Positions 15,029 through 28,214 of a stretch of DNA of 41,829 bases are shown one piece after another. This DNA comes from Planctomycetota bacterium (GTDB lineage Bacteria > Planctomycetota > Brocadiia > Brocadiales > Brocadiaceae). Numbering within the stretch: position 1 is the first letter of the stretch; every line of letters starts with the position of its first letter. The stretch spans positions 1-41,829 of the forward strand of contig JACRII010000059.1 of the NCBI GenBank assembly GCA_016235875.1, written 5' to 3'. The translations under genes and the position numbers were made by a program. A model generated the notes under the pieces. It saw nothing but the letters and a program-made list of their open reading frames with translations. It did no database searches and was not told the origin of the DNA.

Positions 15029-15180
15029 CAATGTCATTGAATTAAAATATTGTGCCGCCCTTTCAGGGCTAAAATATTATTAAATCCTTATCCCAGGGCT
15101 GTCGCCCTGGGCTATACTCTGTCAGTCCTTCGGGCTTTGTTTTGACGAAAAAAACACTTTCCCTTAATTCAATGACATTG
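15029..15180. mobile_element. 152-bp MITE-like element with perfect 17-bp terminal inverted repeats
   Basis: The ends are CAATGTCATTGAATTAA (15029-15045) and its exact reverse complement (15164-15180). The interior holds a short hairpin with CCCAGGG / CCCTGGG (around 15092-15110) and the CCTTCGGG segment, and no open frame. The flanks (about 15003-15028 and 15181-15197) look like two halves of another repeat (CCTCTCCCACCAGGGA before, CCCATCAAGGGGAGAGG after), so this element seems to have landed in an older palindrome. No clear target duplication can be read. The remainder of the 14970-15335 gap (for example 15235-15300) is further repeat-like sequence without a gene. Confidence 0.6.
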
Positions 15181-16661: not shown

Positions 16662-16731
16662 CTCGTATGTCAAATTATTATTTAAGGTGTTCACAATAGT
16701 ATCTATGAAATAACGCATGTAAGGAATGAAT

Positions 16732-17973
16732 ATGGGACTGATTGTACAAAAATTTGGAGGCACTTCCGTTGCCAATGCGGAGCGCATCAAGGCGGCTGCT
16801 AAACGGATAGTAGAGACATATAAGGCGGGGAATAAGGTCATTGTGGTAGTATCCGCAAGAGGTCAAACGACTGACGAGCTGATTGACCTTGCCCATGAAC
16901 TAACGGATAATCCTTCGACACGCGAAATGGACATGCTCATGTCCACCGGGGAGCAGATTTCTATCGCCCTTGTGGCAATGGCCATCCACGCCCTTGGTTA
17001 TCCTGCCGTTTCCTTTACCGGAGGCCAGGTCGGTATCGTTACCGATAGCTATCATACCAAGGCGCGCATCCGGAATATCAACACTCATCGTGTACAGAAA
17101 GAATTGGACAAAGGCACAATCGTCATTGTAGCAGGGTTTCAGGGTATCGATGCGAATGAAAACATTACCACCTTAGGCCGCGGCGGTTCGGATACAACGG
17201 CTGTGGCATTGGCCGCAATCATGAAGGCCGACAGGTGTGACATTTTTACCGATGTGGATGGCATCTATACGGCTGATCCGAGAAAAGTTCCTCTTGCACG
17301 AAAACTTGATAAGGTGTCGTATGATGAAATACTTGAGCTTGCGAGTTTAGGCGCGCAGGTGATGCATTCCCGTTCGATTGAATTTGCAAAAAAATATAAC
17401 GTTCCCCTCTATGTCAGGTCAAGTTTCAACAACAAAGAGGGGACATTGATTTGTAAGGAGGCAAAAGAGATGGAAGATATTGTTGTGAGCGGTGTCGCGG
17501 TAAGCAAGGACGACGCAAAGATTACGATCAGGGCAGTGCCGGATGTTCCTGGCCAGGCTGCCAAGATTTTTCATGAGATTGCAAGAAAAAAAATTAACGT
17601 GGACATGATTATCCAGAACGCAAGTATCGAGAATCGGGCAGATGTGACCTTTACGGTGCCGAGAAGCGATTTACGACTAGCCCTGGAAACGGCGGAGAAG
17701 ATCAAGAATGACCTCGGTGCCAAGGAAGTCCTTCACGACAGTAAGATTGCAAAGCTTTCGGTAGTGGGCATTGGTATGCGGAGCCATTGCGGCGTTGCTG
17801 AGAAGATGTTCAGCGTCCTGGCAGAAGAAAAAATCAATATCCAGATGATCAGTACCTCAGAAATCAAAATCTCCTGTGTCATTGACGATGCTCATGCTGA
17901 TCGCGCCCTGCGGGCTGTCCATACGGCATTTGGGCTTGATAAGGTGGAAAAGGAGGAGGTTGTTAAAGTTTAG
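16732..17973 (+). CDS. lysC: Aspartate kinase with C-terminal ACT domains
   Basis: 413 aa. The N-terminal kinase domain starts with KFGGTSV (7-13); the amino-acid kinase signature follows with GRGGSDTTAVALA and the aspartate-binding FTDVDGIYTADPR. Two ACT domains from about residue 265 (VSKDDAKITIRAVPDVPG and the later LSVVGIGMRSH) provide feedback control, usually by lysine and/or threonine. It phosphorylates L-aspartate, the first step to lysine, threonine and methionine. The ATG at 16732 is chosen over the one at 16726 because AAGGA sits 6 bases before it. Monofunctional, not fused to homoserine dehydrogenase. Convergent with the restriction cassette, whose attC-like end lies 80 bp downstream. 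Confidence 0.95.
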   Translation: MGLIVQKFGGTSVANAERIKAAAKRIVETYKAGNKVIVVVSARGQTTDELIDLAHELTDNPSTREMDMLMSTGEQISIALVAMAIHALGYPAVSFTGGQVGIVTDSYHTKARIRNINTHRVQKELDKGTIVIVAGFQGIDANENITTLGRGGSDTTAVALAAIMKADRCDIFTDVDGIYTADPRKVPLARKLDKVSYDEILELASLGAQVMHSRSIEFAKKYNVPLYVRSSFNNKEGTLICKEAKEMEDIVVSGVAVSKDDAKITIRAVPDVPGQAAKIFHEIARKKINVDMIIQNASIENRADVTFTVPRSDLRLALETAEKIKNDLGAKEVLHDSKIAKLSVVGIGMRSHCGVAEKMFSVLAEEKINIQMISTSEIKISCVIDDAHADRALRAVHTAFGLDKVEKEEVVKV

Positions 17974-18053: not shown

Positions 18054-18113
18054 ACATAACATGAAGTTCACCGGCGCGGGCTTTTTTGCGTCCGGTGCAG
18101 CGGCTTGTTGGCC
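18054..18113 (-). other. Putative integron attC site (attC-B), 3' end of the R-M cassette
   Basis: Read on the minus strand, GGCCAACAAGCCGCTGCACC begins the site. The stem CACCGG-A-CGC pairs with GCGCCGGTG with one unpaired A, the typical extrahelical base. The site ends ATGTTATGT, so the distal R' box (GTTATGT) only partly fits GTTRRRY. The first 22 bases match attC-A (21120-21170) at about 18 positions. It overlaps the last 15 codons of the methyltransferase gene. Confidence 0.6.
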
Positions 18114-20260
18114 AGATATGTTGCCATTTCTTCAAATAGAATGAATTGCTTTGATTCTGTCGCGGTATAGAGAACCTCCCCCTTGGATGAGAGGATATTT
18201 GCAACATAGGAATCGACATCTTGCTCGCGTCGTTCAAGAAACGCTTCTTCCCTATCAAGACAGCAAAAATTGTGCGCCTCACACAGTAGCTGCCCCATTA
18301 AGATCACCTTGGCATCGGCCAGAGATACCGCAATCCCCGCAGACTTCAACATAGAAACCTGAGCGTTAGCTGTCTCGATTGCCGTATGCAACGCATCGTG
18401 GGTTGTATCACGCATATTCGCTTCCGATGACTTGCGGCACAAAAGTATAAGGTCCAGATGGATCGGTGACTTGGCCTGCTGCAGGGGCATTGAAACAGAC
18501 ATTTCCGCCTTGATGGGGTATGCTCGTGTACAAACAAAGCCAGCATGTCTTATGGCTTGATGAACAGCAGTCCAGCCGTTGTGTCTCGCGTGATGATATG
18601 AGAAGACAAGGAGCCCGTCGCTTTTAAGTACACGCCGACACTCCGCAAAGACGGATGTGAGCTTGCTTGTGAACAGGGACGCATCCGTATCTTGCACTTC
18701 TGCCTGATGCCGCGTAGTGTCCCGCGGCGACAAGTTCAGGACATGGTTCAGCCAGTAATAGAAGAAGTCGGCCAACTGAGAATAATGAACGTTGTCGAAA
18801 AACGGCGGGTCGGAAACAATGATATCTACAGAACAGTCGGGAATGTCGGTACAGCCTGAATCACCCTGGCTTATATAAACGCTGTCGCGATTATTCTGAA
18901 ACTCTTGATAAGATGCGGCGATGGGTGCGGAAAGAGGATGATTGAACCCACCCGCCTTGGCCCCTGAGTGTGAATCAATGACAACTTCTGTCGGATTCGC
19001 CTTGTAGTGAAGCGCACGTTCGATGCGGGAGTGATAAAGGCAGGAAAAGGCCCCAGACGACTTGGTTGTTCCCCATATATTTGCCTCAATGGGCATGAGT
19101 TCCGGCTTCAGAACGTGATTGGCAAACATGTGTCTTACCGCACCAGTTCCTTCTCCCTTGAATGAGGTGAACAAATTATTGAACTCGAGCGTTCCGGAAA
19201 ACAGACACGCAAACAGGCGACGAATATCGGGATTCTCTAGCGCACGTATAGCATCTGCGAGCTGCCTGATGCACAGGATGTGACGGTCAGAGAACAATTC
19301 ATGCCAATAGCGATAGTTGTGTTTGAGCATTTGATCAGTGTTATACCCTGATTCCACGCGAACTCGCGGAAGCCCATCAACAATCGAGCCATACTCTTCC
19401 GCTACCATCTTCTCCATTTCGTGGTCATATTCGTTCATCGACTCATAGACCTTGCGACCGTCCTGTAATAGAATCATCTTCGCATATCGGCGATAGGCAA
19501 GTGGTCCGTCAATGTCCTTCATTCTATCAACGAGCTTAAAGCGTGCATCGCAATGTGGACAATGGATATGGGGACCAGAGACCGTGCCGATCTGAGGGTT
19601 GAAGCGTTGTTGGCAGTATGGGCAGGACGCGTCTTCAGCGTCATATCTTGTGTGTGTAATTGCTCCGCATGCTGGGCATGATGCGCGCGCCGAGGGGTTT
19701 TTCTTGGGCATGGCGTTGGCGGAAAATATGCGACTCTTGAAGAGATCAATGGTTGCACTGCAATTTGGACATCCCACGACCTTGACCATGAAGTAGTAGA
19801 GTACCGTAGCCGGTTCGCCCTTTGCAGAGAGCGTCTCGAATAGTTTGAGCAACTTCGGTGCAACATTAGACTCCAGCACTCGGTAAGCCGCACCAATCTC
19901 ACGGTAATCGTAACGTGAAAAGGCAGCCTGGCAGGCTGTGACCGCAACCGGATTGATGTCGCGTCCCATAGACCTGCAACCGAGTTTAACGGCTTCGCCT
20001 ACGGTGACTCCACTACCCATAAAGGGGTCAAAAAGCGAAATCTGGTGAAAGTCGTTTGAGCCGTAATATCGTTGCCAGAAGTCTTCGCGATCATCCAAGC
20101 AAGACCCAAGAATGATGCCGCGAAACACGGTACCAAGCCTGCGCGCCCACCACTTATGAATGTAATAGACAGGGCGGTATACCTCTTTTCGCCAAGATTC
20201 CTGCTCGGCAATTTTGGAGAGGCGGGCAAAAGGAAACTGAGATTCGATCCACTTCGGCAT
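18068..20260 (-). CDS. DNA methyltransferase with zinc-ribbon insertion (DUF1156-like adenine/cytosine methylase)
   Basis: 730 aa. AdoMet-binding motif I DPFMGSG lies at 78-84 and the catalytic motif DPPF at 484-487. The long insert between them contains four CxxC pairs (C164/C167, C195/C198, C213/C216, C234/C237), enough for two zinc ribbons, probably in target recognition. The N-terminal HKWWARR is like that of DUF1156-type methylases seen in phage-defence loci. It should protect host DNA from the endonuclease encoded just upstream: that gene's stop is 5 bases before this ATG, so they form one transcript. The last 15 residues (LHRTQKSPRR end) are encoded by the attC-like hairpin, so the native C-terminus may have been replaced. 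Base composition is richer in G+C than in neighbouring chromosomal genes. Confidence 0.9.
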   Translation of the reverse strand: MPKWIESQFPFARLSKIAEQESWRKEVYRPVYYIHKWWARRLGTVFRGIILGSCLDDREDFWQRYYGSNDFHQISLFDPFMGSGVTVGEAVKLGCRSMGRDINPVAVTACQAAFSRYDYREIGAAYRVLESNVAPKLLKLFETLSAKGEPATVLYYFMVKVVGCPNCSATIDLFKSRIFSANAMPKKNPSARASCPACGAITHTRYDAEDASCPYCQQRFNPQIGTVSGPHIHCPHCDARFKLVDRMKDIDGPLAYRRYAKMILLQDGRKVYESMNEYDHEMEKMVAEEYGSIVDGLPRVRVESGYNTDQMLKHNYRYWHELFSDRHILCIRQLADAIRALENPDIRRLFACLFSGTLEFNNLFTSFKGEGTGAVRHMFANHVLKPELMPIEANIWGTTKSSGAFSCLYHSRIERALHYKANPTEVVIDSHSGAKAGGFNHPLSAPIAASYQEFQNNRDSVYISQGDSGCTDIPDCSVDIIVSDPPFFDNVHYSQLADFFYYWLNHVLNLSPRDTTRHQAEVQDTDASLFTSKLTSVFAECRRVLKSDGLLVFSYHHARHNGWTAVHQAIRHAGFVCTRAYPIKAEMSVSMPLQQAKSPIHLDLILLCRKSSEANMRDTTHDALHTAIETANAQVSMLKSAGIAVSLADAKVILMGQLLCEAHNFCCLDREEAFLERREQDVDSYVANILSSKGEVLYTATESKQFILFEEMATYLANKPLHRTQKSPRR

Positions 20261-20265
20261 CTATA

Positions 20266-21072
20266 TTACTCCATGTCCCCTGCGGTCAAGCACTCGTCGT
20301 CTGTGGCAGGGTCTGGTTCGTTCTCGCTCAGGGTCACGGGCTTGTCGGAATCCTTGTCGAGACGGTATGCATTAAATGAGTGTAATGTGCCTACAGATGG
20401 ATTTGGCACAGTCTTGGGAGTTATCTGGTTAGTTTTAAGGTCGAATTCATACCCCACGACTAGATTCACCGTCTCAACGCGGTTAAGCGTGCCCACTTTC
20501 TGAAAGCCGGGCGGCTGAACCCATGCCGAGGGAACAACAAGGGTGCGTGTTCCTGTGAGACCATCGGCGACGGCAAAGGGTGTGGGGGCCACGTACATCT
20601 TGCGATCACGGATCATGATGTCCCCGTAGCTGCCAAACCCTTTGACGCTCTTGTTCTTGTGCAGATAATCGTGATCGGCGTTGAGAAAATCGCCATGACA
20701 CAGGACAAGATCGATAACCGGATATTCTTTACCGACCTCATCTGCCGGGGGATAGCGACCGAAAACATAGAATACATCACGTCCGTTGTGAAAGCCTGTC
20801 GGTACTTGGCTGTTGCAATCATATGTAGATTCACGTCCCGGCCACGCAAGACCCTTGATCTCGTATCCCTCTGTGAATGCGACAAAAGCAAAATCCGGAT
20901 ATGAATTCCGTCCGCTCTTGTCAAAATTGACTCCAATCTCGTGCAGCCTCGCCTCGAACCAGTTCTGGAAGTGGAACTCCTTATCGGTTCTGCTTACTCG
21001 CCGAATCAGGACACCATTGATGATTGCTTCTGCACACGCTCTGAAGACATCGAAAACTTTCGTCGGTTTCAT
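20266..21072 (-). CDS. Type II-like restriction endonuclease, PD-(D/E)xK fold
   Basis: 268 aa. The nuclease core is clear near the N-terminus: SYPDF with D60, then YEIKG with E71 and K73, the PD-x(n)-ExK signature. The rest is not recognised; aromatic and basic stretches around 110-190 may read DNA sequence. Five bases separate its stop from the methyltransferase ATG, and both lie between two attC-like hairpins, so the pair looks like a complete mobile restriction-modification unit. Its specificity cannot be predicted from sequence. No promoter is clear in the 110 bp before the ATG, which include attC-A; cassette genes are often transcribed from outside. Confidence 0.8.
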   Translation of the reverse strand: MKPTKVFDVFRACAEAIINGVLIRRVSRTDKEFHFQNWFEARLHEIGVNFDKSGRNSYPDFAFVAFTEGYEIKGLAWPGRESTYDCNSQVPTGFHNGRDVFYVFGRYPPADEVGKEYPVIDLVLCHGDFLNADHDYLHKNKSVKGFGSYGDIMIRDRKMYVAPTPFAVADGLTGTRTLVVPSAWVQPPGFQKVGTLNRVETVNLVVGYEFDLKTNQITPKTVPNPSVGTLHSFNAYRLDKDSDKPVTLSENEPDPATDDECLTAGDME

Positions 21073-21119
21073 GTTCCATCCTTTGTATTACGTTTGGGAA
21101 TAGCCATCCATCATCTTCC

Positions 21120-21170
21120 GGCCAACGCCTTGCCAGTGACCGGCTTGTCCGGTCTAGTGGCATGTTGGGC
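21120..21170 (-). other. Putative integron attC site (attC-A)
   Basis: Minus-strand start GCCCAAC (fits RYYYAAC), end GTTGGCC (6 of 7 complementary to it). The inner stem pairs TGCCACTAGACCGG with CCGGTCACTGGCA, leaving one extra base, and the loop is ACAAG. Length about 51 bp. It lies 17 bp after the stop of the 399-aa gene and 48 bp before the endonuclease start, where an attC of a gene cassette is expected. Confidence 0.62.
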
Positions 21171-21187
21171 GATTCTGCATACACCTT

Positions 21188-22387
21188 CTATCTTTTGGCC
21201 CACTGAGCATTCCGAAAATAACCCAAATCAGCCTGAATGCCGATAACTTGCTTCTCACTTTCTGACGTCCATTCGGGCATATGGATGTATGCGAGGTCGG
21301 AAGAGTATCCGACCTCTGATGTGCCTGATCGGTCGGTAGCGATCCCCACAACCGTTGTGACTCCAGTAAGCCTGCCCCGGATGACTAAGCATCTCAGAAA
21401 TAGCTCCCGCACTCTGTACTTTCTATCGGAACTCTTACCGATCAAGAATACAAATGCCGTTTCGGCGTAGCCTTGTACTGCCCGCGAAGCTACTTTCAAT
21501 TCCGGGTTTTCAAGAAACTCTATAAATGACTCCGCAAGTACTGCACGGTGTGCTCTCGGTTGTAGCGCCATTGTTACTAAAGCGAGCTGGTTATCCGTTA
21601 CTTCCCTACTATGCATGTCGAACATCCCATCTGCGAGCAGGTCACTGGCGTAGTGCTCAATGAGTCGGTCCCAGATGTATGAATCATTCATGTCCGTTTG
21701 AATAGCAGCATATTCATCGGATTCAGAAAAACCTTTCCACAGGTCATCGTGCAAAATGAGCCTGTCAGGTTGTTCATGTGTGTCTGCTTTAAGGTTGAAT
21801 GAACGCCCATGCGACAGGTAAAGCGCGACAAGATCTTCAATACCCCCACCAGCGAACATCAGCTTAACGCCATTCGTGACTAAAGCTTCACTGGCCTTCA
21901 GAAACTCAACAAAATCCGTGATAGTGTCAAGAGCGCTAAAGACGATACCGACGCTATATTCATCACATATGTGAATAAATCCATTCCCTAGGTCGCCCCA
22001 TTTTAGCGGGACGTGGCCTCTACCGCCCAATGAAACGGATACGCGGTGATATTGCCGTTCGTCCTTTTTGGGCAATGTAATTGTTCGTCCGTCATGACGC
22101 ACGATTTCATTTACAGTATCAAGCCAGCGCTCAGCACCCCAGATTTGCGCCGCCGACTTTTCAATTGCGGCCTTCCTCCATCGCTCCCAACCAGTTTTGT
22201 CGCCGGTATCTTTATATTCGTTCTCCTTAACGGAAATGATGACGATATGAGGGCCGCATACCACCAGGCAATCACAAAGCTCCTTGTCCTTTTTGCCCTT
22301 CGGATTTGAATGCGTCCACAATCTTAGAAATGATCGTTCGCAAAGGCTGGCGACAAACTTTTCCGAAGGAGTTATTCCGTGTGCCAT
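21188..22387 (-). CDS. Nuclease-related protein of unknown function (possible PD-(D/E)xK variant), cassette-borne
   Basis: 399 aa, not recognised as a named family. Near the N-terminus, KELCDCLVV-x-IVIISVKEN (D39 and K54 with S52-V-K) resembles the core of NERD or restriction-endonuclease-like proteins that have lost the usual acidic residue before the lysine. The remaining 340 residues are alpha/beta and show no known motif. GAGGAAG lies about ten bases before the ATG. The stop is followed after 17 bp by the attC-A hairpin, as in integron cassettes. Composition is like that of the neighbouring R-M cassette. It may be an extra defence gene. A GTTTGGC box just upstream (complement of 22408-22414) might be the other cassette end, but this is weak. 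Confidence 0.6.
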   Translation of the reverse strand: MAHGITPSEKFVASLCERSFLRLWTHSNPKGKKDKELCDCLVVCGPHIVIISVKENEYKDTGDKTGWERWRKAAIEKSAAQIWGAERWLDTVNEIVRHDGRTITLPKKDERQYHRVSVSLGGRGHVPLKWGDLGNGFIHICDEYSVGIVFSALDTITDFVEFLKASEALVTNGVKLMFAGGGIEDLVALYLSHGRSFNLKADTHEQPDRLILHDDLWKGFSESDEYAAIQTDMNDSYIWDRLIEHYASDLLADGMFDMHSREVTDNQLALVTMALQPRAHRAVLAESFIEFLENPELKVASRAVQGYAETAFVFLIGKSSDRKYRVRELFLRCLVIRGRLTGVTTVVGIATDRSGTSEVGYSSDLAYIHMPEWTSESEKQVIGIQADLGYFRNAQWAKR

Positions 22388-22534
22388 TTCAATTCTTCCT
22401 CAATGACGCCAAACAAATTATTATACAGTTTCTGCCTTTTATCAGAGCTGAATCTTAAAGTCAAGGGAAATGTAATACCTAAAAACTCCATACCACAGAG
22501 GCCACAGCGTGGCGAAGCCAAAACCAAAAAATAG

Positions 22535-22894: not shown

Positions 22895-24139
22895 TTATTC
22901 TTTACCTGCCCTGGCCATCTTCGGTTGATAGATGCAGTAAGGCTCTTCGGCAAGATAGTTGCCCGTGTCATAGAATGCACGTGCCCTGCAACCTTCGCAG
23001 ACCTTCTTGTACTCACATGCACCGCATTTACCTTCCAATAAATCTGGGTCGCGCAGTTTTTGAAAGACAGGAGAATCGTTCCAGATATCTACAAATTTTT
23101 GTTTCTTCACATGACCCGCCTCAACGGGCAAATAACCGCACGGGAAAACCTCTCCCTTGTGTGAAACGAAGCACACACCCGTGCCGGCCAGGCATCCCTT
23201 CGTCATGGCAGCCATGCCGTGTGTTTTGGGAGAGATGGTAATTCCTTCCTCTTTAGCGCGTTCTCTCATGATACGGAAATAGTGGGGGGCACAGGTAGCT
23301 TTGGTTTGAATTTTTGCCTCTTTGGAAAGATCATAGAAATGATTGAGCACCTCTTCATATTTCTTTGGGTGAAGCATCTGGTCATCGGCAATCTGAACGC
23401 CGCATCCTACGGGCACCAGCATAAAGATATGTATCGCATCAGCGCCCATTTTTAAGGCCATATTATAAAGATCGTCGATCTGTTCAACGTTATGTTTTGC
23501 AATGGTGCAATTGATTTGCATGCTCATGCCCAGGTCTTTCAGCCTTTTAAATCCTGCGATTGACCGTTCAAACGAGCCGGGTATCTTCCGGAATTCGTCA
23601 TGGGTCTTGGCATCAGCGCCGTCGAAGCTGATGGATACCCTGGCAATTCCTGCATCAACAATTTTCCTGGCAGTAGCATCATCAACCAATGTCCCATTCG
23701 TTGCCAGTGCAACACTCAATCCCTTGCTGACGGCATATTTTGCGATGTCAAAGATATCGGGCCTAAAGAGGGGTTCGCCGCCACTGAGTACCAGGATGGG
23801 TCTGCCGGTCTCAGCCACGGCATCTACAAAGGCAAATGCCTCCTGTGTAGTCATATCGTCTTTGGCAAGGGTGGTGCTCACATCTAATCGGCGGCAATGG
23901 ACGCATTCCAGATTACACCCTACCGTGGTCTCCCAGAAAACCAGACGTAATTGGTTCTTCATGTTCTTCATGTATTCTACTGCAGGTTTACCAGAAGTGT
24001 CGTCTTTTATGCGCGAATAGGTTTCTCTTATTGTTTCAGGATGGCCGCCGTGTCCGTGTGATGCAGGATGACCGCCATGACCGTGAGATGTTGGATGACC
24101 GCCTGGATGTTGTCCGTGTGGATGTTGTGGATGCGACAT
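22895..24139 (-). CDS. ahbD: AhbD-like radical SAM/SPASM haem b synthase with His-rich N-terminus
   Basis: 414 aa from the ATG at 24139, chosen because GGAGG lies 6 bases upstream. The radical SAM cluster CNLECVHC has C75, C79 and C82. The SPASM region at the C-terminus (GKCGACEYKKVCEGCRAR and nearby CLAGTG) binds further iron-sulfur clusters. The best match is AhbD, which decarboxylates iron-coproporphyrin III to haem b in the sirohaem-dependent pathway; the closely related AhbC and NirJ cannot be fully excluded. The first 34 residues hold 11 histidines, with the unit SHGHGGHP twice, which AhbD enzymes do not usually have; a metal-binding tail is inferred. An imperfect palindrome GTAATA-N5-TATTAC (24194-24210) lies upstream. 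Confidence 0.82.
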   Translation of the reverse strand: MSHPQHPHGQHPGGHPTSHGHGGHPASHGHGGHPETIRETYSRIKDDTSGKPAVEYMKNMKNQLRLVFWETTVGCNLECVHCRRLDVSTTLAKDDMTTQEAFAFVDAVAETGRPILVLSGGEPLFRPDIFDIAKYAVSKGLSVALATNGTLVDDATARKIVDAGIARVSISFDGADAKTHDEFRKIPGSFERSIAGFKRLKDLGMSMQINCTIAKHNVEQIDDLYNMALKMGADAIHIFMLVPVGCGVQIADDQMLHPKKYEEVLNHFYDLSKEAKIQTKATCAPHYFRIMRERAKEEGITISPKTHGMAAMTKGCLAGTGVCFVSHKGEVFPCGYLPVEAGHVKKQKFVDIWNDSPVFQKLRDPDLLEGKCGACEYKKVCEGCRARAFYDTGNYLAEEPYCIYQPKMARAGKE

Positions 24140-24193
24140 GTTTTCCTCCGATTGCAATAAATTAAAAATGATTTTAATATGCTGAATGTTATA

Positions 24194-26361: not shown

Positions 26362-28214
26362 ATGAAGAAATTGTTGAATACATTATTTCTGACCGTCTTT
26401 TTTGCGCTGGGCAGCGTATCGGGCTTCTTGCTGCCGGTTTATTCTTATGAAGTTGCCCCGATTAGTGGTGCCGACACGAGCGCGGATACGGTAATAGCCG
26501 ACTCGCAAAATGACTTTTCCGGAGTACAAGGTCAGGATAACTGGTTCTATGGATACTACACCAACTGCGGCAATAGTTCATCGTTTACCCAGATGACATA
26601 TGATACCAGCGGATGGTGGGAGGAAGCTGAGACACAACCTCCGTGGACACTTCTTCGATACAATGGAGGCAATCCGAGTTCAAATCATTGCGCGGTTCGC
26701 CGCTGGATAAGCGAGGTAAGCGGGGATATCGTTATCACAGGCAGGGTAAATAAAAATGATATCAGCGGTGGAGACGGAATTACAGCAAGTATATTGGTTG
26801 ACGGCGTCAACGTATGGTCGCAGGATATTGCATACAACGACTCGACAGGCGTCACTTACGAGGTCAATGCTACCGTAATGTTGATTCTATAGTTGATTTT
26901 GTGATTTCCCCGGGTGAAAATGGTAGCGAGGCTTACGATACCTCCGATTTCACAGCCACAATATCAGGATCAGGAGTACCCAGTTTTGAAGTTAATGTTA
27001 CAGGAGATGAACCGGATGCAGACCTGACGGATGGGGTATGCGATGTAGACCTGTCCACAGACGGCAACCAGTGCACCCTGCGGGCGGCAATCCAGGAGGC
27101 CAACAAGAGAGAGGGTGAAGACACGATTACCTTCGAATCGAGCATTTCGGCAATCAGTCCGGAAAAATCACTGCCGGATATAACCGAAACGGTGACAATT
27201 GACGCCTCAAGCCATTCTTCAAACGTGGAATTAAATGGATCGAATGCGGGCAAAAATGCCGACGGATTCTCTGTCAAGAAGGGAGACCTTACGATAAAGA
27301 ATCTGACCGTTAGTGGATTCTCCAGGAACGGCGTCAAATCCGATGGGTATGTGCAGTTGTCAACTGTCGAGGTAACTGATAATAAAGCCTATGGTGTCTT
27401 TGCCAAAAGCGACATTGTCATTTCTGGGACAGAAACAACGGTAAGCAAATTCAATAAAAATGGGAAAATCGGTCTTTACAGTCAGACGGGAAATGTGGCG
27501 GCCAATGATGCAACGCTGCAAGTCGAGAACAACGGAGATGCCGGTATCGTTTCCGAAGGAGGAGACGTCATCATTAATTTCGTGCCGGGCACACATCTGC
27601 CAACCTATGTGGGAAAACAAAGCATTATCAAAGGCAATGGCAAGAGTGGGATTATTGCCAATGGGCGGGGGAAGCAGAAAGAAGATACAGACGACGAATA
27701 CTACGGTAATGTTAGAGCCAGCTATATAGTAGTGGAAGGTAACGGCGTTAAAATAAAGAAAGATGGGATAGCGCTAAAACCGAGTCTGAAGAATGCTGGG
27801 CATGGCATTTACGCGTCGAACTACGTTGAGTTAATAGAACCGCGTGTAGTGGACAACAAAGGTTACGGAATTGTTTCCAAATACGATGTTATCATATATG
27901 GCAGTGAAACGGCGACAAACGAGTTCAATAATAATGGAGGAGCCGGTATATACAGTCAATTGGGAAATGTCGCTGCTCGTGACGTCATAATATCGGTGGA
28001 GGAAAATGGGCGTTTCGGTATCGGGGCCAACAAGGGAGGTGCTTTTCTGAACGACGCCACAGTAATCAATAACAAGGGAATAGGCATTGTGGTTGGCGGA
28101 GATCTATCCATTAACAAAGGAAAAGTTTGCGACAATAAAGGTGGTGAGATAAAAGTAAAAGGGCAGGAGTCCATTGGGGAGGACGTCGTGATTTGTGACA
28201 ATGAAACTCAGTAG
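26362..28214 (+). pseudogene. Secreted CSLREA/parallel beta-helix surface protein, broken by one frameshift
   Basis: Two overlapping frames make one protein of about 617 aa. The first (26362-26892) has a signal peptide (residues 1-29, core LLNTLFLTVFFALGSVSGF), an AGGAGGG ribosome site and an N-terminal beta domain, and ends ...VNATV-MLIL. The second continues as NVDSIVDFVISPG from 26877, one base back. The join at 26875-26880 (GTAATG) would be restored by one extra A. The second part holds a CSLREA-type motif (GNQCTLRAAIQEANK) and many short right-handed beta-helix turns (NNKGYGI, GAGIYSQLGNVA). Such proteins are exported and often surface-bound. No slippery heptamer is seen, so mutation or a sequencing error is more likely than programmed frameshifting. 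No sorting signal is visible at the C-terminus. Confidence 0.8.

Follow-up and report, generated by a model that had tools for sequence, protein, structure and literature searches.

Defence genes in integron cassettes are already known, and a cassette that carries a restriction-modification (R-M) system is of a known kind. The chromosomal integrons of Treponema have an intI gene that is transcribed toward attI, and integron loss in Treponema and an intI in Kuenenia are reported in the same work (PMC3607928), as are, from Xanthomonas, integrons at ilvD, loss of intI and, elsewhere, clusters of attC sites without an integrase, or CALINs (PMC12444791). Shared with the Treponema and Kuenenia integrons is the order intI, attI, cassettes in one direction, which is seen in the family member G016 and in remnants in this genus; the difference is that the genus genomes yielded no full intI, and that cassettes next to attI-like sites are found at many loci. 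As with the ilvD integrons, the chromosomal site is fixed, intI loss is progressive and the cassettes differ from species to species, whereas phylum and site are others and attI-like copies are dispersed. The interval resembles a CALIN in having two attC within 4 kb, on the same strand and with no intI nearby, yet an attI-like end is kept and a sister species has broken intI pieces at the locus. Less expected are the presence of this end, the fact that the sister species has its broken intI here, and the abundance in the genus of attI-like sites that have cassettes.

The window, i.e., the whole stretch of 41,829 nucleotides that was analysed, is the entire contig C177 of a 2.67-Mb genome (G000; 83.5% complete, 207 contigs). 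An earlier reading of its letters without database searches, here called the sequence-only reading, had placed an R-M gene pair between two attC-like hairpins, as an integrase-less CALIN ending at position 21170 in an anammox-like genome. HZS-alpha is a marker of anammox bacteria. It was found in four congeners (G001, G002, G004 and G006) and not in the 83.5%-complete assembly of G000 itself, and the probable assignment of G000 to the anammox bacteria is supported through these relatives. Three minus-strand genes lie between lysC on the plus strand and ahbD on the minus strand, the latter assigned to TIGR04545 with 495.5 bits, slightly below the cut-off of 500 (Table 1). The block was also said to differ in base composition from its surroundings; with a GC fraction of 0.49-0.51 it does differ from the spacers (0.28 and 0.37), but hardly from lysC (0.48). 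Beyond ahbD, at 26362-28214, two plus-strand ORFs overlap in different frames and may be one frameshifted gene.

Table 1. Features of the lysC-ahbD interval and its flanks in window coordinates. Cassette borders are inferred from the integron crossover rule G↓TT, in which the arrow marks the crossover point.
Feature	Positions	Strand	Remarks
lysC (aspartate kinase)	16726..17973	+	insertion flank; tail to tail with ahbD in the family
attC of cassette 2 (attC2, putative)	18054..18113	-	R'' GGCCAAC, L'' CACCGG, bulged A, L' CCGGTG, R' GTTATGT
Cassette 2, restriction-modification (predicted)	18060..21125	-	3066 bp; between crossover points of attC1 and attC2
730-aa DNA methyltransferase, DUF1156-like (predicted)	18068..20260	-	DPFMGSG, DPPF, four conserved Cys
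268-aa restriction endonuclease, PD-(D/E)XK (predicted)	20266..21072	-	P59 D60 ... E71-I-K73
attC of cassette 1 (attC1, putative)	21120..21170	-	R'' GCCCAAC, L'' GACCGG, bulged A, L' CCGGTC, R' GTTGGCC
Cassette 1	21126..22413	-	1288 bp; between crossover points of attI-like site and attC1
399-aa ORF of cassette 1	21188..22387	-	ATG 26 nt inside cassette
attI-like site	22412..22480	-	core CTGTATAATAATTTG↓TT at 22428-22412; crossover expected G22414/T22413
ahbD (heme b synthase, radical SAM)	22895..24157	-	other flank; TIGR04545

An Rfam search of the window returned no attC match, its only match being an Acido-Lenti-1 RNA (15092-15137, 47.7 bits), and a covariance model, R1, was therefore built from 14 seed attC, of which class 1 integrons and integrons of the same family supplied seven each, none of them from the window or its genus. 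All attC scores given here come from R1 and not from the model of IntegronFinder. Using R1, attC2 ranked first in the 41.8-kb window (33.8 bits, E 5.5e-6) and attC1 second with an only modest score (18.6 bits, E 0.03), followed by a match of 12.7 bits without an L stem. The model had matches at E≤0.001 in all 33 genomes of the family, while in a draw from the order 15 of 59 genomes were without a match, all 15 outside the family.

The hairpins lie where the sequence-only reading had put them, each at the end of a gene and, like the genes, on the minus strand, in attC-type orientation. All 14 reference attC consist of AAC, nine bases, a six-base L'', a bulged A, a variable loop, L', eight to nine bases and GTT. 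Both window sites follow this layout (AAC-N9-L''6-A, then L'6-N8 or N11-GTT), the N11 spacer of one being the sole departure, and the R''-like AAC boxes and unpaired base reported earlier are thereby borne out. The claimed match of the hairpins over their first 22 bases comes down to agreement at about 19 of the first 24. When both strands of the window were searched with the pattern AAC-N9-L''6-A-...-L'6-N7..11-GTT, exactly these two sites were returned; dinucleotide shuffles of the window gave 0.58 matches each, and two or more in 17 of 150, and the pattern was rejected as stand-alone proof at this chance rate, so that the covariance scores and the placement of the hairpins carry the weight. 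Fold energy alone was also rejected as proof: the bottom strand of attC1 folds far more stably than shuffles (z -5.9), but attC2 is not outstanding and hardly beats them (z -1.4). Scores and placement support both hairpins as putative attC sites.

The array does not stop at 21170 but reaches 22413, or 22480 with the attI-like end, and a second cassette, that of the 399-aa ORF, had been missed. From the ahbD side toward lysC, the order is attI-like site, 399-aa cassette and R-M cassette. With two attC on the minus strand 3.0 kb apart (limit about 4 kb), the predicted array is a CALIN by definition; the earlier assignment holds as to the two attC and the absence of an IntI match above cut-off, and is refined by the two cassettes and by the attI-like end, which makes the array more than a bare attC cluster. 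The attI-like core has the general form CTGTATAAT-N5-G↓TT. The 69-nt block at 22412-22480 has two further copies at the lysC-ahbD locus of congener G002, and shorter ones are found in G003 (contig C83) and G005 (contig C288). Its core matches the site that adjoins the start of a full-length intI in G014, CTGTATAATCTATG↓TTAGGC, as well as sites behind the 3' end of intI in G016 and on contig C171 of G000 itself, and a variant lies beside a full-length intI in G009. Judged by likeness of sequence only, the block would be the attI of a complete integron. A Pc promoter at this end was not supported, with one 9/12 match there and 6 in the region against 7.4 expected.

The frames and motifs of the cargo genes are intact. 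The 399-aa protein had no match in Pfam, NCBIfam or PADLOC and no relative in the viral collection searched; its homologues are carried on plasmids (55% in Diaphorobacter), with phrog_18195 in addition, and its motif KDKELCDCLVV...IISVKE resembles, by eye, that of PD-(D/E)XK nucleases. The 268-aa protein had no family match in profile searches. Its P59, D60, E71 and K73 are invariant in 43 homologues, and its predicted structure (pLDDT 79) best matches EcoRV (E 4e-4), followed by NlaIV, HincII and BglI, so that it is a predicted PD-(D/E)XK nuclease with an EcoRV-like predicted fold, of a group encoded at no fewer than 137 places (at least) in the species collection. The 730-aa gene, whose stop codon falls within attC2, encodes a protein that matches Pfam N6_N4_Mtase (3e-11) and phrog_10183 (3.5e-88) and whose DPFMGSG and DPPF are invariant in 13 homologues. 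Its placement in the PglX or DUF1156 anti-phage families was rejected, the PADLOC and NCBIfam matches being partial and the latter scoring 105.9 bits against a cut-off of 1000.

The methyltransferase adjoins the nuclease in 77 of 80 homologous loci, in either order. Motifs, adjacency and fold prediction agree with the earlier claim that the gene pair between the hairpins is an R-M pair forming one cassette, and the pair is a predicted type II R-M system, with a nuclease and an adjacent methyltransferase. It resembles type II systems with PD-(D/E)XK nucleases in the nuclease motif, the EcoRV-like predicted fold and the neighbouring methyltransferase, but differs in that the nuclease has no sequence match to a solved or named restriction endonuclease and the methyltransferase is DUF1156-like.

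Among the other 61 genomes of the order, one (G031) has a distant partial match, 38% identical, and the R-M pair is otherwise missing. Its nearest relatives are from Pseudomonadota and Lentisphaerota (support 99/94). In the Lentisphaerota locus (L161), the methyltransferase gene is followed at its end by an attC (29.8 bits), and the DNA similarity of this locus to the window extends through this attC to the last bases (window 18056), while the Pseudomonadota locus (L158) has in common with the window the cassette start TTGGCCRGAAGA, as compared by eye. These likenesses fit a transfer of the R-M cassette between distant phyla. The pair is also widespread on chromosomes and plasmids without attC, with an attC at E≤1 in 3 of 80 loci. 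In Halorhodospira (L215, 1809-5735), an R-M relative lies immediately 3' of two attC, which suggests another cassette-borne copy.

Comparison of the locus across genomes shows the empty site that the sequence-only reading had proposed to look for. Nine genomes from other genera have lysC and ahbD tail to tail with a short, cassette-free gap, and in congeners G002, G003 and G004 the interval measures 1.8 to 3.2 kb and is occupied by other genes. Matches to attC lie inside the interval of both G002 and G003; for G001 there is one on the contig that carries lysC. The attI-like end of G000 is of the same type as that of G002, while G003 and G004 share a different one, so that the ancestral site was not one single sequence. 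At the lysC-ahbD locus of G002 (C19:361-1315, L059), two attI-like sites stand in tandem, each with its own cassette.

A search with TIGR02249 gave no match in C177 and none above the cut-off in the G000 assembly (83.5% complete), and no IntI above the cut-off in any of the seven genus genomes searched. The functional intI of a complete integron is thus not seen in assembled G000; an intI at some distant place may have escaped the assembly, given its completeness and its 207 contigs. The nearest approach to IntI in the genus is a C-terminal half in G001. In G004, two collinear intI pieces lie between ahbD and the attI-like end, one of 38 bases at 84% and one of about 35 bases near the 3' end, with scores of 26 and 22 against shuffle maxima of 18 and 12. 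No such trace was detectable in the window (score 10, shuffle mean 10.8). When intI was aligned to the flanks with looser, gapped scoring, no significant match resulted, and with stricter scoring only G004 gave one. On contig C171 of G000, two tandem IntI 3' ends (L087, 6640-6760 and 8200-8450) are each followed by an attI-like site near a cassette, and these copies are 85% identical to those of the full integron in G016. IntI fragments spanning only about residues 245-315 recur in many genomes of the family, and the rest of the gene seems to recur less often.

That G004 has a broken intI at this locus speaks for a chromosomal integron that has decayed, and not for a random drop of cassettes. 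The lysC-ahbD interval is very probably the chromosomal integron of the genus after integrase decay, holding an attI-like site and two cassettes. Against this count the modest score of attC1, the negative search for an intI trace in the window, the absence of a promoter above chance at the attI-like end, the two types of attI-like end among the congeners and the incompleteness of the assembly. In the simplest reading, intI once lay upstream of attI and pointed the same way as the cassettes, as it does in Treponema and G016, and has since been lost. IntI would have inserted the cassettes successively, the folded bottom strand of the attC of a circular cassette recombining with double-stranded attI between G and TT, and the integrase would have acted prior to its loss or come in trans. 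If expressed and active, the R-M cassette would guard against foreign DNA, and its costly loss may help to hold the array.

Other origins were considered. A trans-acting integrase might have put the cassettes at a secondary attG-type site, in which case lysC-ahbD would never have had its own integron and the likeness of the G↓TT end to attI would be due to chance. The window without intI would agree with this, as would the scatter of cassettes over many contigs of G000 and over closed genomes of the family, and insertion at non-classical attG sites has been described (Loot 2024, as cited in PMC12444791). Such a course is nevertheless unlikely, as the attI-like block is longer than 60 nt, conserved in a congener and repeated at other loci, and the lysC-ahbD locus is common to congeners, with broken intI there in G004. 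The frequency of the R-M pair on chromosomes and plasmids without attC could instead point to an ordinary defence island, or to a mobile R-M operon that arrived by another route, the hairpins being chance inverted repeats or terminators. This is highly improbable for hairpins that are the top two attC matches, exactly at gene ends and on the correct strand, when an attC also stands at this end in a close R-M relative from another phylum and attC scores set the family (33/33 genomes) apart from many genomes of the order without any. Finally, G000 is a fragmented metagenome bin, in which a foreign CALIN contig might have been fused to an anammox contig; the chance of such an assembly or binning artefact is close to negligible, as the attI-like end and both flanks match the same locus in G002 and several congener genomes independently carry inserts between lysC and ahbD.

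The probable decayed chromosomal integron between lysC and ahbD is accompanied by many further sites. The sequence-only reading had suggested looking elsewhere in the genome for attC and intI; 17 attC at E≤0.1 were found with R1, spread over many contigs, and no intI above the family cut-off in the assembly. Closed genomes of the family also have attC at many places, which shows that the scatter is not a binning effect. The attI core was found 56 times in the seven genus genomes, in at least four sequence families along with other matches; the dispersed core has the form CTGTATAAT-N4/5-G↓TT (e.g., L006, L056, L124, L129, L137, L139, L140, L143, L144, L151 and L154). An attC lies within 5 kb of 14 of the 56 cores, 13 times downstream on the same strand (about 0.5 expected by chance), once upstream and never on the opposite strand. 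It is possible, rather than probable, that the genus has a distributed integron, in which several attI-like families with G↓TT cores are scattered, each with one to a few cassettes, no full intI being found in seven species genomes, and cassettes change at fixed sites through a rare, borrowed or recently lost integrase.

The window is a clear example of an integron cassette whose cargo is a predicted R-M system, and attC-linked relatives of this system exist in other phyla, which favours the idea of integrons as traders of phage-defence genes. It also locates the probable chromosomal integron of an anammox genus at a site that can be compared in its empty, filled and intI-scarred states, which makes it possible to date and test the loss of the integrase and the cassette turnover that followed.
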